DNA of 21,267 nt from a virus. The stretch lies in the IMG/VR virus record IMGVR_UViG_3300024054_000496, positions 1-21,267 of that record. One strand, given 5' to 3'. A program made the translations under genes and the position numbers. Below the pieces are notes generated by a model. It was given only the letters and a program-made list of their open reading frames with translations, searched no databases and had not been told where the DNA came from. Below, in pieces: positions 656 to 20,795 of the stretch (position 1 is the stretch's first letter; each line of letters begins with the position of its first letter).

Positions 656-1642
656 TCAACCGGCCTTGCGCAGCCGCCCAGCGTCGATCTGCATCGGAAC
701 TAGTTTGCTGAGGATGTCGAGCAAAATGAATGCGCGTCGCTCGGCGTCTGCAGTTTGGTAGATCGCATCGATTCCGGCGAACGGGCCATCGGTGATGACC
801 ACCGAATCGCCGCTGGTAAACAAGGCTTCGGCTGGCAAGGCCTGCTCCCGCTGGCGTAACAGGTCAACCAGCGCGTCATCGACCTTGGCCGCCCGAGCCC
901 CGAAATGCACCAACTGGCTCACCCCCACGGTGGAGCGGATCGGCGACCAGCTTTTGCCCTGGTCGCTGCTGTCCAGCCGGATGAACAGGTAGCGCGGAAA
1001 CATGGGCTCGGTGGTGACTTCGGCCTTGCGCCGTCGGATCCGCTCGATGCGCATCTTCGGCAAATAGCACTCGTAGCCCTGGCGCTCCAGATTAGCCAGC
1101 GCGACATCTTCTTGGCGGGGTTTGGTGTGGACCAGGTACCAGGCCGTGGTCGGGGACGTGATGACGGTCAGCGTGGGTGGTGCAGGTGGTGGCGATGGCG
1201 CCGGTATTGAATCAGTGCGCGCGACTGCCTGCAGTTCCGACACTTCAATGGCTGGCAATGTCGGTGCAGCGGGTTTGGTCGTCGATGGCTCAGCTGCTGG
1301 TGTTGCAACTGGCACCGTGGCCGTAGCTGCTGGCGGCGCCACCTGCTGAAGGATCGGCGACAACTTCAATCCAACGGTTTCCGCCATTGCCCGGAGCAGC
1401 GCCAAAGGCCGATCACTGGCCAGCACTTGCTCCATCAGCATCACCGCCTCGTGCCGTTCGATTTCCTGTACATCTGCCAACAAGTAGTGAATCGACAGCC
1501 CCCGTTGCACGATCTGCGGCCCGATGCCGCGTAGCCGCAGGTCCTGCAGTTCCCGAGTGGTCAGCCCCATGCGGTCGGCGACCTGGACAGCGGTCAGTAT
1601 GGTGGGCGTGCTGCCGGGCGATTTGGCGTCATGTGCTTGCAT
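656..1642 (-). CDS. RfaH/NusG-like antiterminator with N-terminal HTH extension
   Basis: This is a predicted transcription elongation factor of the NusG/RfaH class, which binds RNA polymerase and suppresses pausing or termination. The protein has 328 residues. Residues about 15-65 (TAVQVADRMGLTTRELQDLR) look like a MerR/excisionase-type helix-turn-helix. Residues 100-165 are a Pro/Ala/Thr-rich linker. Residues 168-265 are an NGN domain starting WYLVHTKPRQED and containing PRYLFIRL. Residues 277-328 are a KOW-type domain (GDSVVITDGPFAG). I chose the ATG at 1642 because the longer frame, from a GTG at 1732, would run through the terminator hairpin at 1711-1766; its Shine-Dalgarno is poor, so the start is uncertain. 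RfaH paralogues usually serve specific long operons. The target here is unknown, and the N-terminal HTH is an unusual addition. Confidence 0.85.
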   Translation of the reverse strand: MQAHDAKSPGSTPTILTAVQVADRMGLTTRELQDLRLRGIGPQIVQRGLSIHYLLADVQEIERHEAVMLMEQVLASDRPLALLRAMAETVGLKLSPILQQVAPPAATATVPVATPAAEPSTTKPAAPTLPAIEVSELQAVARTDSIPAPSPPPAPPTLTVITSPTTAWYLVHTKPRQEDVALANLERQGYECYLPKMRIERIRRRKAEVTTEPMFPRYLFIRLDSSDQGKSWSPIRSTVGVSQLVHFGARAAKVDDALVDLLRQREQALPAEALFTSGDSVVITDGPFAGIDAIYQTADAERRAFILLDILSKLVPMQIDAGRLRKAG

Positions 1643-1699: not shown

Positions 1700-1726
1700 C
1701 CACAAACGAAAAAAGACCCCGCCTTC
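1700..1726. repeat. 27-nt repeat, copy 1
   Basis: Copy 1 of a sequence that recurs at 3273-3299 in the same orientation with a single mismatch. It runs from CCACAAACG through the A-tract to GACCCCGCCTTC. It forms one arm and the T-tract of the terminator at 1711-1766. Together the two copies bracket the xre-TPR pair. Confidence 0.9.
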
Positions 1727-1766
1727 ACCCACTACCCAGAATCGGGAGCAGATAAGGACGGGGTCT
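1711..1766 (-). terminator. Rho-independent-type terminator after the TPR gene
   Basis: Arms AGACCCCG (1714-1721) and CGGGGTCT (1759-1766) pair perfectly, and the inner bases extend the stem weakly after one mismatch. On the minus strand the stem is followed by a run of six T. It lies between the TPR gene stop (1814) and the start of the antiterminator gene (1642). The loop of about 37 nt is long for a classic intrinsic terminator. Confidence 0.7.
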
Positions 1767-1813
1767 ATGGTTTTGCGTTTGCTACTGCTGGCGATACAGC
1801 AGGAGGACGTGGT

Positions 1814-2908
1814 CTATCTGGGTGGAGTCTTACGAAATCCGTCACGTTCCCAGGGCCAGAAATCCACGCCATAGCGGTTGCGAATCTGGCGCACCATCTT
1901 CTTCGACAGCGTATCGGTGATGCGATCGATGAATGTCATCTGTTTCAGTGAATATGGGTCTCGCTTTTCGGCATCCCATTCGTAGGTCAGTCCTTCATGA
2001 AGCGCTATCATTTCAGCGCGCTCTTTCAGCACTGCCGAGGAATTGAACACCCAGTCGACAAAGTCGATCTCTTCTGACGTCCAGTGGCCCGCGGCTCTTT
2101 CAAGATAGTCAATCGCCCACTCCGGCCCAATCACGTTGCTGGCATGCCAGACCAGGTGCTCCGTCAACACCGAGCGCCCGGTCAATCCCTCCGCAATGTA
2201 GGGGTTCGCAGCGATGCCCCGCCTAAGGTAGGTGCAGGCCGCCACATAGTCCCCCTCCCGAAATGCGATCAACGCCGCCTGGTACCAGTGCGCCGGTGAA
2301 TTGGGCGCACCTTTGAGGTATTCCTTCATGGCGGCCTTGTGGTCGCCCTTGAGCAAGGCGATATCGCCCAGCAGGAAACGTACGCCAATGTTGTCCATGG
2401 GGCACCAGGCAAGCATCTGCTTGGCCAGCGCCATGGCGGCTTCGCCCGCTTTTTCTTTGTCTGGTCGGTGCATCAATCCAAGCAAAGTGCCATGGGCCAC
2501 GCGCAGGAATGACCGGTTGTCGATTTCACCCCAGGAGATCTGACCTTTGAAGCCTTTGGGGATCATGGCCTGCGCCAGCTTGAACGCCCGTTCATACACC
2601 TCGGTGGCTTCATCCTGCAGGCCCAAGGCCCACAGCCGGTTGGCGATGAAATTCTGGATTTCCAGGTTGTAGGGGGTGGTGGCCTCCAGCTTGCGCACCT
2701 GCATCAGTGCTTGTTTATGGCTGACCTGACCGGATTCCAGTTTGTCGATCAGCACATCCAAGGCTTCTTCATCCTGCCAGTTGCGCGCAAAGCGGCCGAA
2801 CTGGGTGGGCTTGCCAGTTTCCGGGTCGTCAAAGGTTTCGATACTGAAACGCTGGGTATTTGGCTGGCCGGCGTCGGCCTTGAACAGGTCAGATTTTTTC
2901 TTGGGCAT
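1814..2908 (-). CDS. TPR-type helical repeat protein of unknown function
   Basis: This 364-residue soluble protein starts MPKKKSDLFKADAGQP. It has no signal peptide or membrane segment. Its middle is made of helical hairpins of tetratricopeptide type: WALGLQDEATEVYERAFKLA, LLGDIALLKGDHKAAMKEYL and ALIAFREGDYVAACTYLRRG each show the small-residue/aromatic TPR pattern. The C-terminus is basic and aromatic (QIRNRYGVDFWPWERDGFR). The start at 2908 overlaps the end of the upstream xre gene by 20 nt, so translation is probably coupled. The longer frame back to 3022 would lie wholly inside xre and is rejected. TPR proteins act as scaffolds or peptide-binding partners. The pairing with an HTH regulator suggests an accessory (moron-like) cassette, but no function can be assigned. 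Confidence 0.8.
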   Translation of the reverse strand: MPKKKSDLFKADAGQPNTQRFSIETFDDPETGKPTQFGRFARNWQDEEALDVLIDKLESGQVSHKQALMQVRKLEATTPYNLEIQNFIANRLWALGLQDEATEVYERAFKLAQAMIPKGFKGQISWGEIDNRSFLRVAHGTLLGLMHRPDKEKAGEAAMALAKQMLAWCPMDNIGVRFLLGDIALLKGDHKAAMKEYLKGAPNSPAHWYQAALIAFREGDYVAACTYLRRGIAANPYIAEGLTGRSVLTEHLVWHASNVIGPEWAIDYLERAAGHWTSEEIDFVDWVFNSSAVLKERAEMIALHEGLTYEWDAEKRDPYSLKQMTFIDRITDTLSKKMVRQIRNRYGVDFWPWERDGFRKTPPR

Positions 2909-3215
2909 GGTTGGGGCCGGGGATTTCAGGAGAGTTGGGCGTGGTAGCCGGATTGCCAGCCTGGGTGGTATAGATGCGACCATTGTTGGCGACATAGCGG
3001 CGCACATCAGGTGCCATGGCATCCGGCACGATCAGCACCGTCATTCCCATCGCCTCGGCCATGCGCTCGATGGACGACAAACGCGGATCGCGCTTGCCGC
3101 TTTCAATTTCCGACAGATGCTGCGGCGACATGCCGACCTTAGCAGACAACATCACCAGCGTCAGACGACGCTGGTTGCGCTGGCGACGCAGGAAAGCGGG
3201 GATCAAAGTTTCCAT
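2889..3215 (-). CDS. XRE-family HTH regulator (HipB-like)
   Basis: This is a 108-residue DNA-binding protein. Residues about 8-58 form a Cro/C1-type helix-turn-helix, with RRQRNQRRLTLVMLSAKVGM followed by SPQHLSEIESGKRDPRLSSI. The continuation AEAMGMTVLIVPD resembles the short beta segment after the HTH in HipB-like antitoxins. The C-terminal 40 residues are polar and probably disordered. I chose the ATG at 3215; a TTG at 3233 would add six residues. No good Shine-Dalgarno is visible. The gene follows the late-operon terminator directly and overlaps the TPR gene by 20 nt. Three palindromes just upstream (3236-3271) are candidate operators, so it is likely to regulate its own operon. Confidence 0.85.
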   Translation of the reverse strand: METLIPAFLRRQRNQRRLTLVMLSAKVGMSPQHLSEIESGKRDPRLSSIERMAEAMGMTVLIVPDAMAPDVRRYVANNGRIYTTQAGNPATTPNSPEIPGPNHAQEKI

Positions 3216-3235
3216 GGACGAAGCGTAGCGCAACC

Positions 3236-3271
3236 AGCGAACAATCGCTCATACGATCGTGTGAATTCACA
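3236..3271 (-). promoter_or_regulatory. Palindrome cluster upstream of xre (candidate operator/promoter)
   Basis: Three palindromes fall within 36 bp: AGCGA-ACAA-TCGCT (3236-3249), ACGATCGT (3253-3260) and the perfect 12-mer TGTGAATTCACA (3260-3271). They lie between the xre start (3215) and the upstream terminator, in the only space available for a promoter. No clean -35/-10 pair is obvious. Dyad symmetry of this type is typical of XRE repressor binding sites; the assignment is inferred. Confidence 0.55.
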
Positions 3272-3272
3272 T

Positions 3273-3299
3273 CCACAAACGCAAAAAGACCCCGCCTTC
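3273..3299. repeat. 27-nt repeat, copy 2
   Basis: Copy 2 of the sequence at 1700-1726, identical at 26 of 27 positions. It supplies the T-tract and one arm of the terminator at 3283-3337. Confidence 0.9.
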
Positions 3300-3337
3300 G
3301 CCACCTGCCGGGTAAGACAGATGACGAAGACGGGGTC
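3283..3337 (-). terminator. Terminator of the tail/holin operon
   Basis: Arms GACCCCG (3288-3294) and CGGGGTC (3331-3337) pair perfectly. After one C/A mismatch the stem continues with CTTCG (3296-3300) pairing to CGAAG (3325-3329), giving about 13 positions in all. The minus strand continues with five T. It lies just past the holin stop codon (3365) and separates the late operon from xre. Confidence 0.75.
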
Positions 3338-3364: not shown

Positions 3365-3793
3365 TCAGCGTGGCGCACCCCGCCATTTATCGAAACTGCG
3401 CGCGCCGGTGTAGCCGAGGTAGCCCGCACCAAAGAGCCACCACAGGCTTTCAGGCACGGCGTTCAGGAGCTTGGACAGGCTCTCGGCGGCCTGGAATACT
3501 TCCGCTGGCCACCAGATGCCGATGATGCTGCCGATGACCGACAGCAGGATCACGCCGTAGATTACATACAGAAAAGTCGGCCGCGCCCGGCTTGTCCAAG
3601 GATCTTGGCTATTGGCCTCGGCCAGGATGGCTGACAAGCTGACCTGCATTTCCTGCAGGGCTTGCTGTCCCTCGGCTTGTAGCAACGCCAGCTTGGCCTT
3701 TTCGCGTTCGGCGGGGTCGGGGATCAACCGGTCGATCAGGCGGGCACCGGCTTCGAACAGTCCGGGGGCCAGGGTTGTCAGAATCGGGTTCAT
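3365..3793 (-). CDS. Phage holin, GTA-type 3-TM family
   Basis: This is a 142-residue inner-membrane protein that resembles the Holin of 3TMs family (GTA_holin_3TM), which permeabilises the membrane for lysis. The N-terminus (MNPILTTLAPGLFEAGARLI) is amphipathic. It is followed by a charged helix rich in Glu, Lys and Gln (about 25-60). A clear membrane segment, FLYVIYGVILLSVIGSIIGI, covers about residues 74-93, and a second, LWWLFGAGYLGYTG, covers about 117-130. The start codon overlaps the stop of the upstream DUF6127-like gene (ATGA), indicating translational coupling. It is the last gene of the late operon. No endolysin or spanin is visible next to it. Confidence 0.8.
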   Translation of the reverse strand: MNPILTTLAPGLFEAGARLIDRLIPDPAEREKAKLALLQAEGQQALQEMQVSLSAILAEANSQDPWTSRARPTFLYVIYGVILLSVIGSIIGIWWPAEVFQAAESLSKLLNAVPESLWWLFGAGYLGYTGARSFDKWRGAPR

Positions 3794-8669: not shown

Positions 8670-8693
8670 GAAGTTCTCCGAGGGGTGGATGGT

Positions 8694-11312
8694 TTAGAGG
8701 TAGTTGTCGATGTCGTTCACGGTGACTCTGCCGCTGGCCAGGCCTTTGAGGAGCGCGCGCAGGGTGTTACGTAGGTTGTTGACCTGCACGTTGGCGTAAC
8801 TGAACTCGTGCCACAGCGGCGCAATGGGGTAGCGCTGTCGGAAGGTGGTCGATACCGTGGTGCCGCTGGCGTTGCGGTAATTGGCCGCGTTGCCCACCGT
8901 GATGTAGATACCCGAGTTGTCCGCCGGGTAGGCATTGCCGTCGTTGGCCCGGATCCAAACCCCGCCGCGCACCGTGTCAGACGGATCCGAGACACCTGCC
9001 GAGAAGAAGTTGGGTGGCAGCAGGTTCCACCACAGGTGGGTGTAGGCGGCATTCCACGGGTTGGCCCGACTGCCATCGCCCGAAGCGGCGGCATCCAAGG
9101 GTCCGTCGATGGTGCGCAAGCTCCACGGATTCCAGATTTCCAATGGGCTGCGCACAATCAGCTCCAGGGGGATCATATAGCTGTAGCCCTCAACCACCTC
9201 GGACCGGGTGGTGCGCGCCACGTACAGCGTCGGATCATTGAAACCGCGTCGGCCATAGGCCCGGCCCGCAGCATCCTTGCTGCCGGTGACAAAGTTGCGG
9301 TTGTACTTGGCCAGGTTGGCTTGCGAATTCCCGTCCGGGTTGAAGGTGGTGTAGACCGTGCCGTAGGAATTGATGTTCTCGGCAATAAAGGCCCCTTCAC
9401 CGTCCAGACCCCAGACCTGGGTGCACAGTGCGTCCATGTCGGCCTGATCCAGCGTGAAGCGGGCATAGCCGGAGGTGGCCAGACTGAGCCAATTGGCATT
9501 CGGGTCGCCCTCGCGCAGCCGCGCCAAAGCTTCCAGATCCTTGACCAGCTTGAATCGATTGCTGGCATCCAGGGTGTGGCTGACCGCCTTGACCAGATCG
9601 AAGGGGAAACGGTCCTGCACAAACTGCACATCGATCGGGTGGGTGTGGGGCGAGACCGAGGTGTCCCAGACCACCGGGCCGGCCTGTGCGCCGTCAAAGC
9701 GCCGGTAGATGGCAATGGCAGGCGTGGCACCACCCACAGCCAAGAAGGTGTTGCCCGTCACCCCGATGGCGCGGGCTCCTATGTCTTGCGCGACGATGGT
9801 GCTGCCGTTCCAGGTCAGTTGTTCCAGATGGGTATGGTTTTCCGAGGCGGGTGAGGCATCGGCCTTGCCGTAGCCGGTTTCCACATACAGCGTGCCGCCG
9901 CCGATCAGGGTGTTCATCTCGGCAGGCGTCAGGGGCACTTCCAGCCCATGGCCATGGGTGCCACCAAAGCCGGAGGCCACGACTGCAAAGGTGATGGTCG
10001 GCGTCTCATCCCCACTGGCATAGCTGGTCTTGGCCACCCGGTTGCTGAGCTTACCCACCGGCGTGGCCCGCACCCGATAGTTGATGTAGGCGTATTCCGG
10101 TGTGCCGTCTTCGCCGATGTGGCTGATCACGCCGCAGCGGAACGACCCGTTCTCGCCCAGATCTTTGGCGCCGGAGAAGTTCAGGCGCTGGGCGAAGGTC
10201 AGCAGGTCTTGCAGACGAGAGGCGTTTTCTCGATGGCGAAAGGACTGGATCTGGGTGTTGAGGTCACCACTGGTGGGGAGCTTTTCCAGCCAGACTTCGG
10301 CGTAGAGCAGATCGAGCCGGGTGTCTTCCAAGTGATCGGTGAACAGGTTGCGCATGTAACGGGCCTGGGTGTCGTTGGCCTTATCGATCACCACCGACCC
10401 ATCGGCGTTCAAGGTCAAGCCGATGGGCTTGGCCAGCACAGCAGCGGGTACGGGCGGTGCATCCAGGTAGCGGTTGTCCTGATCGGCGAGGATCGGGTCG
10501 TTGTGCGTCATGCGCACGTAGTAGCCGTTGACCAGGGCGGTGAGCTCACCCAGGCCGATCATGCGGTAGTAGTTGGGGTGGTTGTGCTGGCTGTGCGCTG
10601 AGTACGACACCGCAAACGGGCGGTGCAAGGCGCCAGGACCATCGTCATTGGCGTAGTTGCGCACGTTGAACAGGCCCGAGCCACCCATGCCACGCAAGAG
10701 TTCGGCGATGTAGGCCGACTCAAACCCGTCGATCAGGAAATCCTGGTCGATCAGCCCCTCATAGGCGGGCGGGATGCCAGGTTCGATGTGGGCAATAGCC
10801 TGGTCCAGGCGGGCGACTTCGGTGCTGACACGGTTGGTGAGGTTGGCCACACCGGTGACGGCCGACTGCACCTGGGCTTCCATCTGCTTGTCGTCGAGGA
10901 AGTCCAGGAGGTTTTCATGGGTGGATCGGACCAGGGCTTCGGCAACGATCGCGTTTTGGCTGGCCAGCGGCAGGTAGTCATAGTCGATCTTGCCGTCCAG
11001 ACCCGCCACCGGCACTTTGCCAGGGGCGGAATCGAAGGAGCCGTCATTGCTGGTGACCACTGCCACCGCTTGGTCGCGGTAAGACTGGGCAGCATTGCGG
11101 GCGGCTTCGGTTTCGTCCAGCGTGTTCGCTGCGGCCGATGCACTTTGACTGGCGGATTGAGCGCTGTTGGCGGCAGACGTGGCACTGCCGGATGCCGCAT
11201 CGACGCTCGCATCTAGCGTGGCTTTGCGGACATTGACGGTGTTGAGCAGTTGGGTGGTGGCGTGCGTGAGCGCCGCCACTTCGGTCATCAGACCGCTGGC
11301 AGATTCGGGCAT
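8694..11312 (-). CDS. Large tail fibre protein with HxH motifs
   Basis: This 872-residue protein is probably a trimeric tail fibre. Residues 35-85 are an Ala/Ser/Gln-rich coiled coil. The segment KVPVAGLDGKIDYDYLPL (99-116) is a typical fibre linker, and residues 140-178 form another helix. The body is a long beta-rich region. Four His-x-His motifs occur: HNH at 243-245, HGH at 453-455, HTH at 493-495 and HTH at 556-558. In the T4 long tail fibre tip such motifs coordinate iron along the trimer axis, which supports the fibre assignment. The C-terminus (about 770-872) includes SAGVSDPSDTVRGGVWIR and ends with a helical NNLRNTLRALLKGL. AAGGAG lies 7 nt before the start. It sits between the tape measure and the tip genes, not after J as in lambda. 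Confidence 0.8.
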   Translation of the reverse strand: MPESASGLMTEVAALTHATTQLLNTVNVRKATLDASVDAASGSATSAANSAQSASQSASAAANTLDETEAARNAAQSYRDQAVAVVTSNDGSFDSAPGKVPVAGLDGKIDYDYLPLASQNAIVAEALVRSTHENLLDFLDDKQMEAQVQSAVTGVANLTNRVSTEVARLDQAIAHIEPGIPPAYEGLIDQDFLIDGFESAYIAELLRGMGGSGLFNVRNYANDDGPGALHRPFAVSYSAHSQHNHPNYYRMIGLGELTALVNGYYVRMTHNDPILADQDNRYLDAPPVPAAVLAKPIGLTLNADGSVVIDKANDTQARYMRNLFTDHLEDTRLDLLYAEVWLEKLPTSGDLNTQIQSFRHRENASRLQDLLTFAQRLNFSGAKDLGENGSFRCGVISHIGEDGTPEYAYINYRVRATPVGKLSNRVAKTSYASGDETPTITFAVVASGFGGTHGHGLEVPLTPAEMNTLIGGGTLYVETGYGKADASPASENHTHLEQLTWNGSTIVAQDIGARAIGVTGNTFLAVGGATPAIAIYRRFDGAQAGPVVWDTSVSPHTHPIDVQFVQDRFPFDLVKAVSHTLDASNRFKLVKDLEALARLREGDPNANWLSLATSGYARFTLDQADMDALCTQVWGLDGEGAFIAENINSYGTVYTTFNPDGNSQANLAKYNRNFVTGSKDAAGRAYGRRGFNDPTLYVARTTRSEVVEGYSYMIPLELIVRSPLEIWNPWSLRTIDGPLDAAASGDGSRANPWNAAYTHLWWNLLPPNFFSAGVSDPSDTVRGGVWIRANDGNAYPADNSGIYITVGNAANYRNASGTTVSTTFRQRYPIAPLWHEFSYANVQVNNLRNTLRALLKGLASGRVTVNDIDNYL

Positions 11313-18497: not shown

Positions 18498-18802
18498 ACA
18501 GGTACCCCGGTCAGCGTCCAGATCAGGCGATCGCGGTCGGCCAACGGTTCGCCCACCACCTGGTAGGCCTGGCCCTTGAACGTGAAACGATCGCCGTCAC
18601 GGGGTATAGGCACCTCGCTGGTCATCACATCGAAGCGATGCGTGGCCAAGGCCAGTCGGCTTTCGCCAAAGGACTCGACCACATCGGCCTGCTTGCTGAT
18701 GAAGCGGGCAACGATCTCACGACCGTCGGCCAACCGGTAGGTACCTGGCACCCCCAGTCGACCAAACAGGCGTGAGACCGCCCTCTCAAAGGCGTGCGGC
18801 AT
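18494..18802 (-). CDS. Head-tail joining protein (lambda gpFII-like)
   Basis: This 102-residue protein resembles the Phage_attach family (lambda gpFII), which caps the filled head and provides the tail-docking site. It begins MPHAFERAVSRLFGRLGVPG and continues as a small beta-barrel (YRLADGREIVARFISKQ, RFDVMTSEVPIPRDGDRFTF, YQVVGEPLADRDRLIWTLTG). Only 3 nt separate its ATG from the capsid fragment's stop codon. Its survival, although the rest of the head module is missing, marks the point at which the deletion stopped. Confidence 0.8.
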   Translation of the reverse strand: MPHAFERAVSRLFGRLGVPGTYRLADGREIVARFISKQADVVESFGESRLALATHRFDVMTSEVPIPRDGDRFTFKGQAYQVVGEPLADRDRLIWTLTGVPV

Positions 18803-19958
18803 GAATCAGGCCGTCAGCTTGATCAACACGCCCGGGCGGTGGCACATGGGCAGCGGGTTGCTCTGCGTGTGCAGGTCGGTGCCGCGCTCGAACTGGCGGG
18901 GTGCCTGCTTCGCGTACAAGGGCTGGCCCAGGGTGTTGACCGTTTCGTTGAAATCGGCCGGTGCAAAGTAGGTGCCAAAGGTGTCCACCGTGCCGACTGT
19001 CAGGTCCCGGATGATTGATAACCTTTTTCTTGAACAGGTGCGGGTGTGATTCCTGCCACCTCTTCAATGCCATCTGGGGTGTCTGGTGGTTGAGAGCCTT
19101 CTGCGGCAGATGCTGGTTGTACAGCCACACGTAGCGATGCAGTGTCTTGCTCAGATCTTCCGCACTGTTGAACCGGTGGGTCTGCAGTACCTGTGCGAGC
19201 CTGCCGTTGAACCTTTCGACCATGCCGTTGGTGCGTGGTGTACGCGGCTTGGTGAGCCGGTGCTCGATGCCCAGGCTCTGGCACAGCAGGTCGAACTCAT
19301 GCTCGCCAGAGGCGTCCTTGGCCCTGCCGCCGAACAGCCTGTCGGTGAACTCCTTACCGTTGTCGGTCAGGATGGTGCTGATCACGAACGGCGCGGCCTT
19401 GGCCACCTCCTTGAGGAAGCTGCGCGCAGCCGCCGCCGTCTTGCGACGCTTGATGCTGATGAACACCCAGCGCGTTGCGCGGTCGATGGCCACGAACGCA
19501 TAGCCGCGCGACGGCTCGTCAGCCATCTGGGGCAGGTACTTCACGTCGATGTGGACGTATCCCGGCTCGTAGGCCTTGAAGGGCTTGGCAGGAGAAGACT
19601 CGGGCGACGGCTTGGGCAACTGGTCCACGCCTCGGCGCACCAACAAGCGGTGCAACGAGGAGCGGCCCATCGTCGGGTGGACGAACTCGCGCACAACCGC
19701 AAGCAGGTCATCCAGAGGAAGACGCAACTGCTTGCGCAGGTAGACCACCAGTTCCTCCTGGCCGGCGTTGAGCGTGGTCTGCAGCCGGTGCGGCGTGTGG
19801 CTGCGGTCTTCGACCGAGTCACGATGCTTCCAGCGCTGCACGGTCGTGCGGCTGATGCCGTATTGCTCCGCCAACTCGTACTCGCTGGCCGAGGACTGCT
19901 GGATCTGCGAGCGCACCGCAGGCGTTGTCGTGGCGTTCTTGTGCAGTGCGATCATCAT
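18786..19958 (-). CDS. IS481-family DDE transposase, read through into capsid DNA
   Basis: The enzyme cuts and joins the ends of the IS. Residues about 25-60 are a helix-turn-helix (EYELAEQYGISRTTVQRWKH). The DDE catalytic residues are Asp138 (VHIDVKYLPQ), Asp199 (ILTDNGKEFTDR) and Glu248 (NGMVERFNGRL). I chose the ATG at 19958, with GGGAG about 9 nt upstream, rather than the frame start at 20048. About 320 residues lie within the IS, the usual size for the family. The IS contains no stop in this frame, so the protein continues at the left end (HPGPD) into capsid DNA in another frame and ends at 18786, adding about 70 foreign residues. Activity is uncertain for that reason. Confidence 0.85.
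   Translation of the reverse strand: MMIALHKNATTTPAVRSQIQQSSASEYELAEQYGISRTTVQRWKHRDSVEDRSHTPHRLQTTLNAGQEELVVYLRKQLRLPLDDLLAVVREFVHPTMGRSSLHRLLVRRGVDQLPKPSPESSPAKPFKAYEPGYVHIDVKYLPQMADEPSRGYAFVAIDRATRWVFISIKRRKTAAAARSFLKEVAKAAPFVISTILTDNGKEFTDRLFGGRAKDASGEHEFDLLCQSLGIEHRLTKPRTPRTNGMVERFNGRLAQVLQTHRFNSAEDLSKTLHRYVWLYNQHLPQKALNHQTPQMALKRWQESHPHLFKKKVINHPGPDSRHGGHLWHLLCTGRFQRNGQHPGPALVREAGTPPVRARHRPAHAEQPAAHVPPPGRVDQADGLIHAARL
18806..18997 (-). pseudogene. Major capsid protein, C-terminal remnant cut by IS481-family element
   Basis: Sixty-three codons and a stop remain. The segment VDTFGTYFAPADFNETVNTL is followed by a terminal HTQSNPLPMCHRPGVLIKLT. The ending, a QS-NPLP-RP pattern just before the stop, resembles the C-terminus of the lambda gpE capsid family, and the gene lies directly upstream of the FII-like gene, as in lambda. 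The 5' part is replaced by the insertion sequence at 18998. A GTG at 18988 is the only start within the fragment and is unlikely to be real. Confidence 0.7.
18998..19017. repeat. IS terminal inverted repeat, left
   Basis: TGTCAGGTCCCGGATGATTG, the exact complement of the right end at 20046-20065. Transposase codons continue through this repeat. Confidence 0.9.
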
Positions 19959-20045
19959 GTGGCCAGGCTCCCGGAAGTGAATGCTGCCAGAACTGCCTTC
20001 AGGACGTCCCGCCCGAAGAGCAGAGCGCGTCGATTCTGCAGCAGC

Positions 20046-20065
20046 CAATCATCCGGGACCTGACA
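20046..20065. repeat. IS terminal inverted repeat, right
   Basis: CAATCATCCGGGACCTGACA, the exact complement of the left repeat. The motif CCTGACA occurs again at 20088-20094, 29 bp further out. Confidence 0.9.
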
Positions 20066-20151: not shown

Positions 20152-20562
20152 CTACCGGCAGTCAGCCACCCAGTTCTCAAGTTCGAGCGCTGGCACCCGT
20201 TCGAACTCCGCGACGTTGTTGGTGACCAGCACCAAGCCTTCGCTGCGGGCATGCCCCGCAATGTGCAGGTCATTCACCCCGATGGGTCGGCCGAGTTTTT
20301 CAAGAGCCGCGCAGATGGCGCCGTAGTGCTGCGCGGCCTTGGCACCGTAGGGCAGCACCTCCAGGCGGCTGCAGAAGTCCTCGATGGCCGCCAGGTTCTC
20401 ACCCACGCGTTGGCTTTTCTCGGCGCCGTGTATCAGTTCGGCCAGGGTGATGGACGACATGGCCATGCGACTCGCGTTGGCGTTGAACGTGGAAAGCAAC
20501 TCGAGCGGCCGGCGCTTCAACACGTAGATGACGATGTTGGTGTCGAGCAGGTAGCGCAACAT
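20152..20562 (-). CDS. vapC: VapC-type PIN-domain ribonuclease toxin
   Basis: This 136-residue toxin of type II vapBC systems is a Mg-dependent RNase that typically cuts tRNA or rRNA. The PIN active site is present: Asp7 (MLRYLLDTNIVIYVLK), Glu42 (ITLAELIHGAEKS), Asp98 (GVNDLHIAGHA) and the TNNVAEFERVPAL segment at 114-125, where Asn116 stands at the fourth acidic site. The VapB stop and VapC start overlap as TGATG, so translation is coupled. The frame is complete and looks functional. Confidence 0.93.
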   Translation of the reverse strand: MLRYLLDTNIVIYVLKRRPLELLSTFNANASRMAMSSITLAELIHGAEKSQRVGENLAAIEDFCSRLEVLPYGAKAAQHYGAICAALEKLGRPIGVNDLHIAGHARSEGLVLVTNNVAEFERVPALELENWVADCR

Positions 20563-20795
20563 CAAAGGGCTTCCCGCTCCGGCTGATGCTGAGAGGCACG
20601 TTCGGGCAAAAAGTCATCACTCACACGCGGGCCGTCCAGAAAGAAGCTGTCCCAGGTCTGCCCGACGGGGGCGATGATGCGCTCGTGTCCTTTGACGCGG
20701 ATCTCAACTTTGTGGACGCCCTCGGGCAAACGGACGTCCAGCGGCAGCCGGACGGCTTGGGTGCGGTTGTTGACGAAGACGGTGCCGATGGACAT
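20562..20795 (-). CDS. vapB: VapB antitoxin (AbrB/SpoVT-type)
   Basis: This 77-residue antitoxin neutralises VapC and represses its own operon. The N-terminal swapped-hairpin DNA-binding domain reads GTVFVNNRTQAVRLPLDVRL, typical of VapB. The C-terminal part, with TWDSFFLDGPRVSDDFLPER, is the toxin-binding tail. I chose the ATG at 20795 because GGGAG lies 6 nt upstream; the frame to 20825 would cross the operator. A palindrome lies 20 bp upstream of the start. Confidence 0.9.
   Translation of the reverse strand: MSIGTVFVNNRTQAVRLPLDVRLPEGVHKVEIRVKGHERIIAPVGQTWDSFFLDGPRVSDDFLPERASQHQPEREAL

Follow-up and report, generated by a model that had tools for sequence, protein, structure and literature searches.

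Gene content of the xre-TPR locus

The window, i.e., the whole 21,267-base IMG/VR record analyzed here, is a fragment of a phage and the same sequence as G000. On its minus strand, tail genes are followed by a gene for a DUF6127 protein, a 3-TM holin gene, a terminator (T1), an xre gene, a gene for a TPR protein, a second terminator (T2), a NusG/RfaH-like gene, and the start of a recombinase gene (Table 1). The last assignment was taken from relatives: Resolvase and Recombinase domains were found in the homologue from the related phage L022, and the window ORF is a predicted recombinase on that basis. The listed start of the nusG-like ORF is a GTG at 1732, within T2. However, the start used by relatives corresponds to the ATG at 1642, and T2 was therefore placed between the TPR gene and nusG. 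The G+C contents of the TPR gene (57.1%) and xre (58.7%) were modestly lower than that of the window (61.8%).

Table 1. Features of the xre-TPR locus and its flanks in the window
Feature	Position	Strand	Evidence and remarks
NusG/RfaH-like antiterminator, downstream flank, with N-terminal extension	656..1642	-	Pfam NusG, 6e-23; NCBIfam RfaH, 3.5e-49
T2, second terminator copy between TPR gene and nusG	1700..1767	-	Hairpin and T run; -37.4 kcal/mol; z -4.7
TPR protein, 364 aa	1814..2908	-	Pfam TPR_8, 4.5e-07; 20-nt overlap with xre; dN/dS 0.12-0.20
XRE/HTH_3 regulator, 108 aa	2889..3215	-	Pfam HTH_3, 1.2e-12; dN/dS 0.14-0.29
Putative -10 element TACGCT	3222..3227	-	Aligned upstream regions have a TAnnnT-like hexamer at a similar position
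Operator, 16-bp palindrome TCACACGATCGTATGA	3249..3264	.	Centered ~41.5 nt before the xre ATG; position conserved across loci
T1, intrinsic terminator after holin gene	3273..3337	-	Hairpin and T run; -43.3 kcal/mol; z -7.0
3-TM holin, upstream flank	3365..3793	-	Pfam GTA_holin_3TM, 1.5e-24; PHROG holin, 1e-30

Several other features of the record and its relatives were recorded. The N-terminal extension of the NusG/RfaH-like protein (~165 residues), which by eye has the look of an excisionase-type HTH, is present in L015, L018, L020, and L022 to L025. In L022, a family 2 glycosyltransferase gene (8689-9531) has the nusG-like gene on one side and the recombinase gene on the other. Toward the other end of the record, the minus strand encodes a PIN-domain toxin with a MazE-like antitoxin (20152-20795), and a transposase with an integrase core (18786-20048) lies between this pair and the tail genes.

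Duplicated terminators and empty sites

T1 and T2 share a 27-nt repeat (1700-1726 and 3273-3299) with 26 of 27 bases identical (37 nt at 86%). All pairs of 27-mers on one strand of the whole window, spaced by at least 30 nt, were scanned, and the T1/T2 tail pair, including its shifted registers, was the sole repeat with 23 or more matching bases. None of 200 shuffles folded as well as either terminator. The original prediction that near-identical terminator tails flank the xre-TPR pair was thus borne out by the best repeat of this kind in the window and by strong minus-strand hairpins at both copies.

Prophages were compared at 80 loci found via relatives of the DUF6127 protein. In L023, L025, and L027, a single terminator separates the same holin gene (96%) from the nusG-like gene, and xre-TPR is absent. 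Occupied sites were found in the window, L002/L012, and L011/L026; L030 and L200 have the start of the XRE gene only, at contig ends. This comparison, suggested along with the original prediction, therefore yielded both occupied and empty sites, and the three empty-site loci lack the pair at a position where related phages carry it, a feature by which morons are recognized. At the position of the window cassette, L017 (6646-7406) carries a HipB-like HTH and a HipA N-terminal domain, as expected for a cargo site.

T1 and the single terminator of the empty site in L023 are identical at 57 of 65 positions (88%). T2 has its arms, T run, and tail in common with the L023 terminator; its loop is different, and its 3' sequence runs on into the nusG leader. 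Judging by this alignment, T1 is the terminator originally present at the insertion site. Because of these matches to the L023 terminator and the nusG leader, T1 and T2 mark the left and right edges of the insert, with the terminator duplicated around it.

A conserved operator upstream of xre

The palindrome TCACACGATCGTATGA upstream of xre was the only such site in the window when up to three mismatches were allowed. The only part of the xre upstream region that does not diverge between contexts is a block containing TCATACGATCGTATGA or close variants, ~34 nt before the ATG, and the palindrome keeps this spacing in loci spanning the Betaproteobacteria with otherwise unrelated flanks. An exact degenerate operator search of 24 carrier genomes returned 14 sites, compared with none for the reversed-pattern control. 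Thirteen of these sites precede an xre-TPR locus, and the 14th (G018:C70) precedes a truncated xre; all five viral matches were cassettes. Exact matches were absent from 13 of the 24 carrier genomes; several of these have variants (e.g., TCATACGATGCGATGA), and contig ends truncate some loci. The description of the pair as having overlapping frames and a palindromic upstream region of its own was confirmed.

The cassette's own promoter is predicted from the conserved -10-like hexamer and the operator, with terminators on both sides. Because the hexamer lies 6 to 7 nt before the xre ATG, the xre transcript is probably leaderless. Autoregulation by XRE through the palindrome is likely, since the palindrome covers the -35 region; it could be of either sign, since the operator is centered near -41.5. 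A perfect inverted repeat (13/13; arms at 3169-3181 and 3227-3239, 45 nt apart) straddles the xre start. Covariation between the operator and the XRE helix was suggestive for the MSPQ/ESG and MSVQ/ESS groups but inconsistent (L103 and L026).

Distribution and joint evolution of the pair

The genome scan returned 67 loci. About 30 of them, at 58 to 84% identity, came nearly all from betaproteobacterial metagenome-assembled genomes (MAGs), some of whose labels are doubtful (one contig is labeled Akkermansia), and xre precedes the TPR gene in most that are long enough. No XRE gene was detected at the remaining loci (~27 to 36% identity; mostly alphaproteobacterial). Copy number reached six matches in one genome and up to four in others, some of them broken. 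In L104, XRE and TPR are encoded in a single fused frame that resembles a deletion.

XRE and TPR distances were correlated across 21 loci (r = 0.89; 0 of 5,000 permutations), which is expected for linked genes and therefore shows joint travel only. The dN/dS ratios (Table 1) show purifying selection on both genes. Synonymous conservation was compared between the two genes, and any excess in xre was too mild to claim.

Among 200 genomes of one order, the xre-linked pair occurred in the seed genome only, besides two distant homologues (33 to 37%). Because of this single xre-linked carrier and the widely varying contexts, the pair is accessory; a core chromosomal operon, the case set against the original prediction, is rejected on the same low prevalence and varied contexts. 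In the TPR tree, in which several inner branches are weakly placed, lysis-adjacent copies fall in two places and at least four context changes are needed; the module has thus moved between contexts. Separately, the distant TPR relatives in L124, L126, L129, L131, and L148 are convergent to one shared gene, which by eye clusters with a HipA-like protein; as their surroundings are similar although the hosts differ, an element that spread recently is suggested.

Genomic neighbors and possible functions

A lysis gene lies directly upstream in 11 of the 30 cassette loci examined, several of the others having short upstream sequence. These lysis neighbors are of at least three unrelated kinds: the holin type of the window, phage lysozymes (Phage_lysozyme), or an Rz-like gene. 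In the chromosomal loci L099, L100, L101, L105, and L112, a different NusG-like gene lies 3' of the TPR gene (~100 nt after it in four); together with the window, the pair thus adjoins a NusG-like gene in two unrelated settings.

The families of 137 neighbor proteins were counted as a description of the loci and not as an enrichment. Toxin-antitoxin and defense families comprised AbiEii (5), DUF6088/AbiEi-like (4), RES (3), PIN (3), HipA_C (2), and ParE (2); MazE/PemK and matches to AbiE, IetA, and AbiLi models were further neighbors. Because of the AbiE, HipA, MazEF, RES, and PIN neighbors and the HipB-HipA genes at the same site, a toxin-antitoxin-like or anti-phage function is favored over the others, and we place it slightly below an even chance. 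Counting against it, the TPR protein has no known toxin or defense domain and, at 364 aa, is large for a type II toxin, many copies lie beside glycan clusters rather than defense genes, and the distant TPR relatives come without a detected XRE gene.

Glycan genes were in fact the commonest neighbors among the 137 proteins (Epimerase, 6; GT2, 6; Polysacc_synt_2, 5; UDP-GlcNAc 2-epimerase, 3), and the pair is convergent on galE-like genes in L003, L092, L094, L095, and L116. These genes, with the NusG-like gene after the pair in the five chromosomal loci, would suit a lysogenic-conversion surface module in which the pair changes phage adsorption by regulating or aiding the synthesis of surface glycans. 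However, no glycan gene adjoins the window cassette, the neighboring glycan genes vary and are oriented opposite to the pair, and the 14 exact operators all lie before xre rather than before a glycan gene; we consider such a module unlikely.

A role in phage biology itself, with XRE as an auxiliary repressor or late-gene regulator and TPR as its modulator, would accord with the likeness of XRE to the HTH domains of phage repressors and with the adjoining late genes and antiterminator. Since sister phages do without the pair, the window has a single palindrome, and the unit is kept in nonphage loci, this role is quite improbable. XRE as the master repressor of the phage is ruled out by its absence in sister phages and the single operator.

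The TPR protein family

The TPR protein had no PHROG or PADLOC match, and the PADLOC scan of XRE gave a match over the HTH stretch only. Pfam gave TPR and TPR-like models only for the TPR protein, with no known toxin or defense domain, and tblastn against 50,697 phage records returned no match. By these searches the family is undescribed, in agreement with the earlier statement that no function is known for this TPR family with an XRE partner. Across 43 to 48 members, 28 to 30 alignment columns are invariant. The AlphaFold model of the TPR protein is a confident TPR superhelix (pLDDT, 88.6; <50 for the N-terminal 16 residues); the mean pLDDT of the XRE model was 67.6. Fold matches in the PDB were generic TPR proteins, with a chain of a eukaryotic RQC complex at Foldseek rank 4 (TMq, 0.50), and the BFVD search gave generic TPR matches, none at an E value of 0.001.

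An XRE domain and a confident TPR superhelix encoded together call to mind fused XRE-TPR receptors, and the TPR protein had a weak profile match to NprR (E value, 0.32). A split RRNPP-like sensor, in which TPR, on binding a ligand such as a peptide, would switch XRE at the operator, is nevertheless very doubtful: the two proteins are separate, no peptide gene was identified, and many TPR proteins match NprR at least as well.

Three distant members of the family, near relatives of each other, exceeded the Pfam cutoff for Tcf25 (PF04910; 24.2 bits; 215 residues), i.e., L130 (28.3), L153 (28.8), and L004 (24.4). The window TPR protein had no Tcf25 match at an E value of 0.1, and the other individually scanned members fell below the Pfam cutoff. 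An ST7-like family, considered as a candidate, was without Pfam support among the families shown. The link of the family to Tcf25, a eukaryotic ribosome-quality-control factor, is weak and serves as a lead; that the protein is a bacterial and phage relative of TCF25/Rqc1 acting on ribosomes or nascent chains, and that with XRE it constitutes a module of a new class for addiction or phage defense, is a long shot.

Proposed model of the cassette

The xre-TPR pair is very probably a moron-type cargo cassette, as judged from its sequence context. We propose that a ~1.45-kb unit (operator/promoter, xre, and TPR gene) was inserted behind the prophage lysis genes, with a copy of the late terminator at either end. 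The terminators would shield the cassette from late transcription and nusG from transcription begun in the cassette. By binding the palindrome, which would overlie the -35 region of the weak xre promoter, XRE would autoregulate the pair; in the lysogen, XRE on the operator would set a low level of both proteins, the overlapping TPR gene being expressed together with xre. The TPR protein would act as an effector or sensor whose function XRE restrains until the cell is infected or the element is lost. This whole account, comprising the moron cassette, its regulation, and a toxin-antitoxin-like or anti-phage role, is the one toward which we lean. The original moron reading stands well as regards accessory insertion, empty sites, and terminators on both sides, and its defense or host-fitness role stands as a suggestion. 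Because the unit recurs in many unrelated betaproteobacterial places, often close to genes for toxin-antitoxin systems, phage defense, or surface sugars, it has the appearance of mobile cargo that serves the lysogen.

The module is a compact two-gene cargo from undescribed families, and its operator lends itself to sequence searches. It sits at a prophage position also used by known toxin-antitoxin genes and thereby offers a list of candidate lysogen defense loci, and in its TPR protein it may include a bacterial relative of a eukaryotic ribosome-quality-control factor about which little is understood.

Comparison with known systems

The window TPR protein matches neither Tcf25 nor a PADLOC defense model. 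Likeness to the Tcf25/Rqc1 family lies in the three relatives over the cutoff and the RQC complex chain among the fold matches; the window protein differs in scoring below the cutoff, and generic TPR similarity could explain the matches. RRNPP regulators (NprR, PlcR, and Rap) likewise combine an XRE-type HTH with a TPR domain, on one polypeptide. The pair is encoded by two ORFs and differs further in its betaproteobacterial hosts and in having no identified peptide gene.

XRE-regulated toxin-antitoxin pairs surveyed in 2009 include HipBA, RES-Xre, GNAT-Xre, and DUF397-Xre, and the main text of that survey does not mention TPR (PMC2701414). The xre-TPR pair resembles them in its small XRE gene placed first, its overlapping second gene and palindromic operator, its patchy multicopy spread, and its proximity to other such pairs. 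Like type II systems, it consists of two overlapping genes, one encoding a predicted DNA-binding autoregulator that would bind the palindrome. It differs in that the second gene encodes a 364-aa TPR protein, which by Pfam and PADLOC belongs to no known toxin family.

Phage morons are horizontally acquired accessory loci transcribed separately from the phage genes (PMC6469090, PMC7067206). The gene family of xre-TPR, unlike these, is undescribed; the cassette resembles them in being inserted between genes that are neighbors in sister phages, with a promoter-like region of its own and terminators on both sides.
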